Shown here one piece after another: positions 1,791 through 47,933 of a stretch of DNA of 64,000 bases (positions are counted from its first letter, which is position 1; every line of letters begins with the position of its first letter). The notes under the pieces were generated by a model. It was given only the letters and a program-made list of their open reading frames with translations. It did no database searches and was not told the origin of the DNA. A program made the translations under genes and the position numbers. The stretch is taken from NCBI RefSeq assembly GCF_000341735.1, contig NZ_KB455575.1, positions 3,418,904 through 3,482,903 on the forward strand. The letters run 5' to 3'. Origin of the DNA: Methylotuvimicrobium buryatense 5G (lineage in GTDB: Bacteria; Pseudomonadota; Gammaproteobacteria; Methylococcales; Methylomonadaceae).

Positions 1791-1883
1791 ATGACAGCAT
1801 GGATGCTGTCATAGAGCCTACAGGGACGTATTTACGGCGTCCTTTGACGCGGGCCCCCGGCGCTGAATTTTGATCTGTGATGG
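1791..1883 (+). repeat. Family-1 repeat, truncated copy F
   Basis: It starts with a perfect 22-bp palindrome (ATGACAGCAT GG ATGCTGTCAT), continues with the family core (CCTACAGGGACGTATTTACG then GCGTCCTTTGACG) and ends with the right arm GAATTTTGATCTGTGATG. The core and right arm match the copies at 11104-11312 and 47013-47241. The left arm of the full element is missing. The final GTGATG is the start region of pcp. Confidence 0.75.
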
Positions 1884-2509
1884 CTAAGTTATTAATAACA
1901 GGCTTCGATCCTTTTGCAGGAGAGATCGTTAATCCTTCATGGAAAGCCGTTCGCCATTTAAATAATACGATCATCGGTGGCTTTGAAGTGATTGCCCACG
2001 AAATTCCGACCGTGTTCGGTAAAGCGTCGGCGATCGTGCAAAGTCAAATTGAGCACCATCAACCCGCTGTCGTGATCGGTGTTGGTCAAGCGGGCGGTAG
2101 CAATGCCATTCGTATGGAATGTTTGGCCAAAAATCGGATTAACGCCAGAAAACAGGATAATGAAGGTAATCAACCTAAGAATACATTGATTGCCATTGAA
2201 GGTTCTGCCTCCTACCCGGCTTCGATTCCTGTTGAAAACATGGTCGAGCAGATCAAAACAGAGGGTATTTCAGCGTATCTTTCCAATTCAGCGGGAGCTT
2301 TTGTCTGTAACGAGCTTTTTTATTCGACACTCCATTATGTCGAATGCCAAAACCTGCCGATACGAGTTGGTTTTATTCATGTCCCTTATTTGCCGGAACA
2401 AGTCGCCAATACAAAACGAGCCGGACTGCTGCCAAGCATGACCGAAGAAACGGTCGTTCGAGCGCTGACTGTTGCAATCGAGGCTATTGGTGACCGTTTG
2501 AGCAATTAA
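1877..2509 (+). CDS. pcp: Pyrrolidone-carboxylate peptidase (pyroglutamyl peptidase I)
   Basis: Cysteine peptidase (family C15) that removes N-terminal pyroglutamate from peptides in the cytosol. The Glu-Cys-His set is all visible: Glu in GQAGGSNAIRMECLAKN, Cys in SAGAFVCNELFYS and His in GFIHVPYLPEQ. The 210-residue length and the N-terminus LLITGFDPFAG fit the family. Start is either GTG 1877 or ATG 1880; ATG 1880 (MAKLLITGF) is more natural. Both lie in the last bases of a dispersed repeat, so the ribosome-binding region is repeat DNA. It converges on the peptide ABC operon, ending 20 nt from it, which suggests but does not prove a shared role in peptide use. Confidence 0.9.
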   Translation: MMAKLLITGFDPFAGEIVNPSWKAVRHLNNTIIGGFEVIAHEIPTVFGKASAIVQSQIEHHQPAVVIGVGQAGGSNAIRMECLAKNRINARKQDNEGNQPKNTLIAIEGSASYPASIPVENMVEQIKTEGISAYLSNSAGAFVCNELFYSTLHYVECQNLPIRVGFIHVPYLPEQVANTKRAGLLPSMTEETVVRALTVAIEAIGDRLSN

Positions 2510-2529
2510 ACTCAAACAGCATTTCACCA

Positions 2530-4542
2530 TTATGTATCCTTATGCAACCAACACGCCGAATAGTGAACGGCGCGCGGTTCGAACTCCGGTGGTTCTTCTA
2601 CATCGCACAGCCCTTTGATGGCATACGGACAGCGCGGATGAAAGTGGCAACCAGGCGGCGGGTGCAACAGACTGGGCGGTTCGCCGTCCGGTAGTTCGCG
2701 TTCTTGAGCGGCATTCTTGGCATCGGGGTCGGCGGTGGCCGCTAGCAAGGCTTGCGTATAGGGATGCTGAGGAAAGTCGAGCAGGTCGTCAACAGTGGCT
2801 GCTTCGACGATGCGGCCTCCGTACATCACGAAAATGCGGTCGGCAAAATGCCGCACGGTCGATAAATCGTGCGTGATGAAGGCCAGCGTCAGCTCGCGCT
2901 TGCTTTGTATCGTACGGAGCAGGCGCAGGATCTCGACTCGTACCGAGGCGTCCAGCATCGAGACCGGTTCGTCCGCGATGATCATCGCCGGTTGTAAAAT
3001 CAACGACCGGGCAATGACGACCCGCTGTTGCTGACCGCCGCTGAGCATATGCGGAAACTTAGGCAAATAATCGTCGGCTGGCGACAGGCGCACCTCTTCC
3101 AGTGCAGCCCGTATCCGCGTTTCACGTTCCTTGCGGTCTTTGACGCCGTGAATGATCAGCGGCTCGCTCAAGGCGCGGCGGATCGTCATGAAGGGCGGCA
3201 GCGCGCCGAAAGGGTCTTGCTGCACATAGCCGACACGCGCCCGGTATTGCTTGAGTTCATGCTTATTCAAGGCATGCATGTGTCGGCCTTCGAAGACGAC
3301 TTCGCCTCGAGTCGGCGCATGCAGACCGAGTAATGTGCGCGCCAAGGAGCTTTTTCCGCAACCGCTTTCGCCGACGAAGGCAACCGCCTCGCCACGATAG
3401 AGGTGGAAATTGACGCCATTTACCGCACGCACATAGCCCGCCCGGATAAATCCCCATTGCTTTAATTCGAACCAGGTATGCAGGTCTTGTGCAGTAACCA
3501 AAACCTCTTTACTTAACGGCCGTGTTTCCAAAACGGGAATCGGAGTGTTATGCAATCCTTGCGGTTTGCCGGTTTCGATGCGGTCCGTATAAAGCCAGCA
3601 ACGGACTTCGTTTCGTTTCGACAAGGCTATCGGCATAGGGTCTTCATCGCAGCGGTCGAATCGGGCGGGGCAACGATCGGCGAAACGGCAGCCCGAAGGC
3701 AGCAGCATCAGATTCGGCGGTTGACCTGGAATGTGATCGGGTTGCCGGGTCTGGTGCAGGCGCGGTACGCTGTCCATCAACAGCTTTCCGTAAGGATGGG
3801 CCGGTTTTGCAAAAAACTGCGCGGCACTGCTAAGTTCCACGAATTGCCCCGCATACATCAGCGCGACACGATCGGCGATTTCGCTGGATGTGGCGACGTC
3901 GTGGGTAATCAGCATGAAGCTGGTGCCCAGTTCCCGCTTGATGCGTTTCAATCGATTCATGATGCCGGCCTGCGTCAGCACGTCCAGCGCCGAAGTCGGC
4001 TCGTCCATGATCACCAGTTCCGGTTCCGCGACCAAGGCCATCGCCAGCACTACCCGTTGGCGCATGCCGCCGGAAAGTTCGAAAGGATAACGCCTTAAAA
4101 AATCGCCGGACACACCAACCAGTTCGAACACTTCCCCGGCGCGGGCCATGGCTTTGTGCGGGGACCAGCCGCGATGCACACACAAGGGTTCGGCCACTTG
4201 CTCGCCGACTCGCATGACCGGATTCAAAGCGTTCATCGAAGCCTGCATCACCAGCGAAATACGCAGCCATTGGATTTCACGGCGAAAGCGCTCGGGACTC
4301 AGGGGCATGATGTCGACGCCGTCGAGCAGTACCCGGCCCGAATGGTGTTTGACATTGCGCGGCAGTACCCGCAACAGGGCCTTGGCCAACGAGCTTTTGC
4401 CGCAACCCGACTCGCCCAGCACCACCAGTGCTTCGTTGCGCTGGATTTCGAAGTTCAGGCCGTCTACGGCTGTGACGATGCCGCGTTCGGTTTGATAAGC
4501 AAGCCGCAGATCTTCGACTTTGAGCAGGGGTTCTGTCATCAT
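2530..4542 (-). CDS. Peptide/nickel-type ABC importer, double ATP-binding protein
   Basis: A fusion of two ATPase domains equivalent to DppD plus DppF (also seen in YejF-type proteins), energising the two permeases encoded just upstream. Each half carries Walker A (GESGCGKSSLAKALL and GESGCGKSSLARTLLG), a signature (LSGGMRQRV and LSGGQQQRV) and a Walker B (MDEPTSALD; ADEPVSMLD). Each half ends with the Cys-rich oligopeptide-transporter tail (CRFADRCPARFDRC and CHFHPRCPYAIKGLC). ATG 4542 overlaps the TAA of the preceding permease as TAATG, so I choose it over a longer frame that runs into that gene. About 670 residues. Last gene of a four-gene operon. Substrate not determinable; di- or oligopeptides are likely. 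Confidence 0.92.
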   Translation of the reverse strand: MMTEPLLKVEDLRLAYQTERGIVTAVDGLNFEIQRNEALVVLGESGCGKSSLAKALLRVLPRNVKHHSGRVLLDGVDIMPLSPERFRREIQWLRISLVMQASMNALNPVMRVGEQVAEPLCVHRGWSPHKAMARAGEVFELVGVSGDFLRRYPFELSGGMRQRVVLAMALVAEPELVIMDEPTSALDVLTQAGIMNRLKRIKRELGTSFMLITHDVATSSEIADRVALMYAGQFVELSSAAQFFAKPAHPYGKLLMDSVPRLHQTRQPDHIPGQPPNLMLLPSGCRFADRCPARFDRCDEDPMPIALSKRNEVRCWLYTDRIETGKPQGLHNTPIPVLETRPLSKEVLVTAQDLHTWFELKQWGFIRAGYVRAVNGVNFHLYRGEAVAFVGESGCGKSSLARTLLGLHAPTRGEVVFEGRHMHALNKHELKQYRARVGYVQQDPFGALPPFMTIRRALSEPLIIHGVKDRKERETRIRAALEEVRLSPADDYLPKFPHMLSGGQQQRVVIARSLILQPAMIIADEPVSMLDASVRVEILRLLRTIQSKRELTLAFITHDLSTVRHFADRIFVMYGGRIVEAATVDDLLDFPQHPYTQALLAATADPDAKNAAQERELPDGEPPSLLHPPPGCHFHPRCPYAIKGLCDVEEPPEFEPRAVHYSACWLHKDT

Positions 4543-47241: not shown

Positions 47242-47279
47242 ATTATGCTCCAGCCCTTTCTTATTTGCTATTAAAGCGC

Positions 47280-47312
47280 GTAGCCCGTATGCAGCGTAGC
47301 GGAATACGGGAA
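47280..47312. repeat. Hairpin repeat (CCCGTAT...ATACGGG)
   Basis: GTAGCCCGTATGCAGCGTAG then CGGAATACGGG forms a 7-bp stem. This GC-rich hairpin sequence is common in many proteobacterial genomes. 46710-47012, between it and hicA, shows no gene except possible hicA promoter DNA. Confidence 0.55.
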
Positions 47313-47356
47313 TGGCGTGGCTCCGAGCTCTAAATAAAGACTATCAATTGATACCA

Positions 47357-47933
47357 TCATTTAGCGCTTGGAATAACCTGTACATTGCCTATCAAAAAAG
47401 CTTTGTCATAAATAATGATCGGAACAGACTCTAGCTCGTCTTGAGCCATTAACATTCGATCAAACGGGTCTCGATGCGCAATCGCCAAGCTTCCTGCTTT
47501 TAGTGCATGACGCGACGTAATAGCCAATTCCGCAAAGCCCATTTTCCGAAGAAAACCCTGATAATCAGACAATAACGGCTTGGCTTCGGGTAGTTTGCCT
47601 ATCCGGTATTTCGTTGCAATTTCCCAGGCCGATGCGCTGCTTAGAATTTGGTCATAAATAACTTCCCTATTTTAGTGGGTTCGGTAACTCGATTGGCAGG
47701 TGTCGGCGGCAGGGAAAGCCGCCGTCAAGCCTACAAGGAAGTATTCACGGCGTCCTGCCAGGCGAGTTACCGAACCCTCAACAAAGCTCATAACTCCAGA
47801 AAGTTATTTTTAGCGAAATCCTTACCAAAATTCTATGCGCGGGGTCGCTGATAATATCGCGGCTCACGGCACAAAGCTTGGGGTCGTTAAATACCCACCA
47901 CAGCAAAACATGGGTATCGATAAAATAGCTCAT
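47357..47933 (-). pseudogene. vapC: VapC-type PIN-domain toxin, split by a repeat
   Basis: The N-terminal part reads [20 protein letters not shown] to DPAHRILV (47834-47933), with the first catalytic Asp in FIDTH. After an inverted-repeat insert the same protein continues as SSASAWEIATKYRIGKLPEA (Glu of the active site) and ends with HRDPFDRMLMAQ (Asp) to NVQVIPSAK. Joined, these give one complete PIN domain of the common VapC type. The start overlaps the upstream antitoxin stop as ATGA. The insert introduces about 190 bases, so a working toxin is not expected. Confidence 0.88.
47642..47834 (+). repeat. Inverted-repeat element inside vapC (copy K)
   Basis: GGGTTCGGTAACTCG (47677) and CGAGTTACCGAACCC (47763) form the inner arms. 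Outer flanks AGAATTTGGTCAT / ACCAAAATTCT extend the symmetry to both insertion borders. The centre has GTCGGCGGCAGGGAAAGCCG and the diverged family core CCTACAAGGAAGTATTCACG then GCGTCCTG. It matches the reverse of copy J at 15641-15770. Confidence 0.75.

Follow-up and report, generated by a model that had tools for sequence, protein, structure and literature searches.

Copy number and distribution

Intergenic DNA of the methanotroph Methylotuvimicrobium buryatense 5G carries a dispersed repeat with a fixed core and exchangeable arms, noticed in a stretch of 64,000 nucleotides of contig NZ_KB455575.1 (the window; coordinates below count from its first letter). The family is a wide, mobile variant of the YPAL-type repeats; its fold covaries strongly and its loops are of the CsrA type. 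On the strand whose loops read GGA (the GGA strand) the unit is a three-way junction of the stems P1, P2 and P3, which covary across genera. The favoured mechanism, to which a probability of roughly 55% was given, is that of a mobile RNA module for CsrA/RsmA docking, CsrA binding being predicted from the loops. The unit rides as cargo in several backbones of the miniature inverted-repeat transposable element (MITE) kind, and its copies exchange arms by recombination. The GGA strand would be transcribed, its two hexaloops would bind one CsrA/RsmA dimer, and each copy would be a docking or decoy site for CsrA, with a possible regulatory effect.

The core was found with 0-1 mismatches at six sites in the window (1817+, 11242+, 15698-, 18373-, 47102+ and 47730+), at a chance expectation of 0.01. 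A search of the 5.07-Mb genome of the host with a 22-nt core pattern, allowing up to two mismatches, gave 539 matches (282 + 257) and none for the reversed pattern used as control, which bears out the large dispersed family of the original prediction. Each of the ten intergenic sites listed there carries part of the described layout: six have the core at 0-1 mismatches, one of them split by an insert, and of the others two have a diverged core, one has a truncated core and one consists of arms only. The arms are self-complementary within each copy. Across 56 distinct arm pairs of the host genome, 10.6 of 12 positions paired with the copy's own arm, compared to 5.3 of 12 with the arms of other copies; for 32 arm pairs from other, named genomes the values were 11.1 and 5.6. 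The observation of a family with a fixed core and exchangeable arms is thus sound. The arm sub-types are also real, but their number exceeds the three originally given.

The 27-nt core, with up to three mismatches, matched 529 times in the host genome and 70 times in the next-highest genome. In a scan of the class with this core, 51 of the 369 genomes sampled had the element, as did 46 of the 272 genera (reversed control 0). When 398 genomes were drawn from the phylum, 25 matched, all among the 137 Gammaproteobacteria; none of the 261 genomes of other classes did, and the reversed control gave one match apiece in two genomes. One locus (L253, G572:C1:94444-95379) holds five listed core matches in one orientation at a spacing of 227-229 bp, a tandem array of the element. 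DNA similar to one window copy gave no match among plasmids and a single 32-bp match among phages, in two records of one phage.

The fold of the GGA strand

P1 is the outer stem and of free sequence. P2 is a free-sequence stem capped by C-[ANGGAN]-G, and P3 has the form GCC-UAC-[ANGGAN]-GUA-UUYAC-GGC with covarying pairs. The junction model was written from inspection and then scored on a gap-free alignment, A1, of 41 copies of canonical geometry, 18 from named genomes and 23 class-wide, some rows coming from one genome. To count as canonical for the loop counts below, a copy had to have 13 or more of 20 P1 pairs and 5 or more of 7 P2 pairs, which kept 42 of 193 copies from the host genome, 18 of 75 named and 23 of 34 class-wide ones. 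On A1, 93.4% of the cells were paired, a percentage inflated in P1 and P2 by the selection on pairing. Thirty of the 33 pairs had changed on both sides. The covariation score was 0.813, compared to 0.193 in shuffled alignments (0 of 500 reached the observed value) and 0.13-0.17 in slid versions of the model. This compensatory change speaks for the selection for a folded form that had been proposed. RNAalifold independently predicted the same junction and added two pairs, 21-46 and 22-45, which covary.

In other genomes the outer pairs of P3 change in step (AGCC..GGC, AGCG..CGC, AGCT..AGC, AGCA..TGC), and so do its inner pairs (TACA..TGTA and TCCA..TGGA). Unpaired cases such as G-A occur at columns 50/68 of A1 in 5 of 41 rows. 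In many Stenotrophomonas copies the UUYAC bulge has become CUUGC, two positions changing in step (GTACTTGC; core positions 63 and 66 of A1), which the junction model does not explain.

Loops of the CsrA type

Among the class-wide canonical copies (23 copies from 19 genomes) the P2 hexaloop began with A in 23 of 23, contained GGA in 20 of 23 and was closed by a C-G pair in 21 of 23, over 16 distinct stems. GGA was present in the P2 loop of all 18 named copies, on 12 stems, and of 36 of the 42 host copies, on 7 stems. The P3 loop is of the same type, so that ANGGAN hexaloops, mostly C-G closed, end both stems. P3 was located through the core pattern, so its loop does not count as separate evidence; no pattern used for fetching or filtering contained the P2 loop. 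A total of 181 distinct copies from the host and 72 from elsewhere were kept, of which P2 was parsed in 154 and 63 and had GGA in its loop in 122 and 52, respectively. In the set used for arm pairing, which includes mis-parsed hairpins and hairpins interrupted by a nested module, M2, GGA was found in 61 of 89 distinct P2 hairpins. M2 occurs in P2 of some copies and elsewhere; GGA is present in 40 of its 41 first loops and in all 41 second loops. Relative to a nearby exact core it lay on the opposite strand in 15 cases and on the same strand in one; 25 had no exact core within 170 nt.

Judged by their sequence, the P2 and P3 hexaloops are of the site type published for RsmE, A/UCANGGANGU/A (PMC6849547), and for CsrA, RUACARGGAUGU with an ANGGAN hexaloop (PMC7652899). 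RNAs that bind CsrA/RsmA carry GGA in ANGGAN loops at least twice per RNA, and P2 and P3 together provide this. CsrA binding was proposed on the same kind of grounds for TwoAYGGAY and Bacillaceae-1 in an earlier motif study (PMC4333381). The host has one csrA; its open reading frame (ORF) begins MLILTRRVGETLMIGDEV, and R44 is present.

Carriers, mobility and arm exchange

Backbones were typed for 184 of 190 sampled host copies, the rest lying at edges. Full type A backbones, with TATACC ends, carried 95 copies; 24 were half A, 21 type E, 14 type C, 5 half E and 5 half C. The remaining 20 fell outside these types, some being a further type F. Three kinds of backbone (A, B and C) differ in presence between related species, with precise filled and empty sites and target duplication, and these sites show recent insertion. 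The type A copy at 11104 is absent from the relative G003 (L207), and an additional type A copy lies in G003 opposite window 32017; the target is TA in both cases. The type B copy at 32887-33053, whose right boundary is inexact, is also absent from G003 (L205), again with a TA target; in G004, a relative from the host's genus, its P2 contains M2. Opposite window 35610, G003 has a type C copy between two TAA. Type C ends match those of an insertion sequence (IS) whose ORF is a transposase of the ISAzo13 family (NF033519, E 2.2e-135). An autonomous partner with TATACC or type F ends was not found in the sampled third of the genome, and the comparisons of filled and empty sites in relatives revealed no movement of types E and F.

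The original prediction had posed a conserved fold and transposase-recognised ends as alternatives. Both seem to apply, each on its own layer: the TATACC and TAAGGAA ends on the outside act like the ends of MITEs, and the inner stems seem to be the conserved fold. Two larger insertions were seen within elements. In L152, at about 2540-3870, an ORF for an IS110-family transposase (NF033542, E 1.4e-61) lies inside a type A element and splits its core between ATGTAG and GCTCTGTGACAG; similar TATCT junctions at other cores may mark further insertions. In L308, P2 of the first element at the Stenotrophomonas site described below is split by a longer insert that has transposase-like reading frames.

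At least five of the 184 sampled host copies join the left arm of one type to the right arm of another. The nine copies sampled in G518 fall into two P2 types around a near-constant core, and no two have the same arms, which makes slow compensatory drift unlikely as the sole source of arm diversity there. At one Stenotrophomonas site the matched arm pairs differ by species; the arms do not match in L301 and match only in part in L299, and L309 carries a deletion. L306, L314, L315 and L316 have the left arm alone, which was considered as possible evidence that one arm is copied from the target flank; either an empty site or a deletion at a 3-bp repeat would fit. An orthologous-site comparison in the genus of G518, with anchors located in 19 of 30 loci, revealed 28-bp arms that stay paired while single pairs change (GTTCCGGGGG/CCCCCGGAAC, GTTGCGGGGG/CCCCCGCAAC, GTTCCGGTGG/CCACCGGAAC). 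Matched arm swaps and paired single changes together indicate that wholesale exchange and stepwise compensation both occur.

The folded strand and alternative explanations

With scoring blind to wobble and helices of score 16 or more kept, P1 mismatches on the GGA strand were mostly G.U: the ratio of G.U to A.C was 46:11 for the class-wide helices (31), 87:27 for the named ones (61) and 213:55 for those of the host (136). Helices with more G.U than A.C outnumbered the reverse by 18:2, 38:5 and 91:14, respectively. The corresponding mismatch counts were 13:1 (host), 0:1 (named) and 5:3 (class-wide) for P2, and 4:4, 0:0 and 2:1 for P3. The strand signal accordingly comes from P1. The preference for G.U on the GGA strand, expected if this strand folds, indicates that its fold is the one maintained. 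The simple reading of a folded GGA strand is RNA; it may also be a strand-specific form of single-stranded DNA.

In DNA hairpins, too, G.T is a milder mismatch than A.C. The P1 asymmetry does not, then, separate DNA from RNA, and the unit could be a single-stranded DNA hairpin read on one strand, by its loops and bulge, by an unknown transposase, with the fold kept for mobility. Many genomes have the unit in mobile or amplified form, as this would have it, and YPAL insertion is reported to duplicate 3-26 bp of target and to occur at a dyad symmetry or beside one (PMC2229807). We nevertheless consider a DNA hairpin unlikely. The moves seen in the host genome are explained by MITE ends outside the unit. 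Mobilisation by RAYT was rejected, as the four Y1_Tnp transposase genes of the genome have no core match in their ~3.3-kb loci. Lagging-strand insertion was likewise rejected, the replication-strand bias being weak (45+/54- at positive GC skew, 55+/36- at negative, p 0.04, in a systematic sample).

Somewhat more doubtful still is that the copies are selfish MITE debris, with arms kept complementary by gene conversion and template-switch repair of quasi-palindromes, and loops conserved by descent. Wholesale arm exchange and deletions are what such debris would display, and in the host genome the loops are no better kept than the stems and gene ends are not preferred. Descent, however, does not explain GGA in 20 of 23 class-wide copies over 16 different P2 stems, it leaves the covariation of P2 and P3 unexplained, and template-switch repair would not favour G.U over A.C. 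A long hairpin in the 3' regions of mRNAs, acting as stabiliser, RNase III site or terminator whatever its loops, is improbable: P1 is indeed a long, stable stem (z between -10.2 and -5.4 in four folded copies and -2.6 in the one at 1790) and YPAL is reported to be co-transcribed with upstream genes, perhaps affecting RNA stability (PMC2229807), yet both strands would fold so while gene orientation is biased and P2 loops are conserved, and the host copies in 43 convergent, 87 tandem and 27 divergent gaps track the intergenic bases of these gap types (71, 164 and 62 kb).

Several observations weigh against the docking module. In the burst of copies in the host genome GGA is kept no better than the P2 stem, and 6 of 42 canonical copies lack it. 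The conserved UUYAC bulge and GCGU are not accounted for by CsrA. The G.U excess is not significant in class-wide P2 or in P3. The GGA strand is more often antisense than sense to tandem neighbours, by 54:33 in the host genome and 34:15 elsewhere (p 0.0008 together); these counts use crude ORF proxies, and in the set from elsewhere 57 of 152 copies lie within such a proxy, with possible double counting of a few (L047 and L254-L258 are one genome). The antisense excess implies that read-through mRNA mostly carries the non-GGA strand, and the Rfam model Ysr224 is also of the strand opposite the GGA strand. Co-occurrence with csrA is weak: 47 of the 51 element genomes had a csrA hit, as did 266 of the 318 other genomes (one-sided p 0.08), and the element genomes without one are G225 (98% complete), G371, G099 and G038. 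The rarity of sense copies can also be counted for the docking module, as it is expected if sense GGA loops disturb mRNAs and sense insertions are lost.

A tentative extension of the docking module, held with clearly less confidence, is that of a mobile decoy: a transposon-borne RNA module with the CsrA sites of one dimer per copy, by which transposition would help to set the titration of a global regulator while the arms swap and the loops stay fixed. If CsrA binds, transposons would be a route for bacteria to gain or lose CsrA sites, and crosslinking and immunoprecipitation (CLIP) data for CsrA would merit re-reading with repeats included. If CsrA does not bind, loop conservation over freely changing stems would still need an explanation.

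Copies and related repeats in the window

The copy at 1790..1883 (+) has the P2 hairpin, the core and the right arm, and its left arm and left end are not recognisable. Type A MITEs are found at 11104..11312 (+), with the P1-P2-P3 core and a nested M2 at about 11159-11204 whose GGA loops lie on the minus strand; at 18322..18466 (-), with the core; at 28776..28966 (-), with a truncated core and M2 on the plus strand at 28867-28908; and at 47013..47241 (+), with a core interrupted at 47122-47184 by a 63-nt hairpin insert, CAGCACCTAAAT..ATTTAGGTGCTGGG, with TTTAC on each side. Type A ends alone, without core, occupy 18839..18888 (no strand assigned). The hairpin at 15668..15772 (-), given as site 15611 in the original prediction, has P1, P2, the core and type E flanks, and Ysr224 matches at 15648-15750. 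Type B arms (GGGTGTGG..CCACACCC) with a diverged core (CCATGGATGGGTTTACGGCGTTCC) were found at 29127..29288 (+), and the type B element at 32887..33053 (-) has TACTC ends and a diverged core (CCCCATGGAGGGGTTCACGGCGTTCC on the minus strand). At 47641..47824 (+) a type F backbone (TTAGRATTTGGTC..GCGAAATCCTTA) carries P1, P2 with the loop AGGGAAA, and the core.

Of the core, a type D repeat (TATACTTCGC..GCGAAGTATA) at 9665..9874 (+) has only CCTACAAGGATGTAGG, at 9728-9743, which makes a closed hairpin with AAGGAT as its loop. No other closed hairpin of the form CYACANGGANGTRG occurs in the sequence sampled, and related repeats that lack this hairpin are inserted opposite window 19828 in G003 and G004. 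At 15784-15955 an AT-rich repeat, GTATCTACACA..TGTGTAGATAC, is flanked by two copies of CTTCGGAACC; it is absent from G002, has other copies in relatives, and is another kind of MITE, without the core.

Comparison with known systems

CsrB, RsmZ and TwoAYGGAY have, as published, hairpins with ANGGAN loops, at least two per RNA, as seen here. They are single or few genes and the present family is a dispersed mobile repeat. A search of the host genome for the RsmZ family gave no match, and a covariance-model search for TwoAYGGAY (RF01731) gave none up to E 5 in 8 loci and up to E 1 in 12 loci. The REP/BIME palindromes associated with RAYT are also intergenic and of high copy number, and the complement of the core contains GTAG (GTAG and CGTC tags: PMC3733652). 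They differ in that the four Y1_Tnp genes have no flanking core, and in the nested three-stem layout found here. In the window, an ORF at 58191-58895 with a Y1_Tnp match at 58224-58556 is flanked by AAAAGGGGTCAGGTTAC repeats and not by the core. Prokaryotic MITEs share inverted ends, target duplication and no coding capacity seen, one kind here being ISAzo13-derived; in the present family, backbones whose ends are unrelated carry one and the same structured cargo.

At gathering thresholds an Rfam search of the window gave no match. At a permissive threshold, full-length matches to Ysr224 (RF02770) were found opposite the GGA strand, the best, in L086, at 41.5 bits (E 3.4e-6). The host genome has at least 31 such places at E 0.001 or below, the best at 37.7 bits, with 150 of 1519 first-look candidates scored; none of 14 control genomes had any. 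All matches are under the gathering score of 70 bits. Ysr224, listed as a temperature-responsive small RNA of Yersinia (PMC9029176), is modelled on the strand opposite the GGA strand, and the pairing around its core differs.

The nearest likeness is to YPAL/RU-2, described in the literature covered as miniature insertion sequences of Yersinia of unclear function. The RU-2 sequence printed for Yersinia (Delihas 2007; PMC2759123) contains the exact 27-nt core AGCCTACATGGATGTATTTACGGCGTC, and with Ysr224 sharing the core as well, the statement that no named family has this structure does not hold. A search for six core strings, the RU-2 form not among them, found none in the papers covered, and none of these papers joined YPAL and CsrA. 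Compared by eye, RU-2 has a P2 hairpin with the loop AAGGAT directly before the core and complementary arms just outside (PMC2759123), which is also the layout of A1. YPAL is intergenic and multi-copy, with 43-144 copies in ten Yersinia genomes and 2 in Y. ruckeri (PMC2847712, Table 3). The arms and P2 stems are, however, unlike, and among the matches listed the exact 23-nt core was found in contigs named Methylomonas, Stenotrophomonas, Arenimonas, Ectothiorhodospira and Thioalkalivibrio, hosts outside Enterobacterales. YPAL termini are reported to lack TA, with target duplications of 3-26 bp (PMC2229807); the carriers found here have TA (types A and B) or TAA (type C) at the four sites examined. 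The present analysis adds the covarying fold, the folded strand, the spread through the class and two loops that may be tied to a regulator with a solved binding mode. The repeats are members of a wider family of structured elements, recurrent across Gammaproteobacteria, whose named relatives found are YPAL/RU-2 and Ysr224 of Yersinia.

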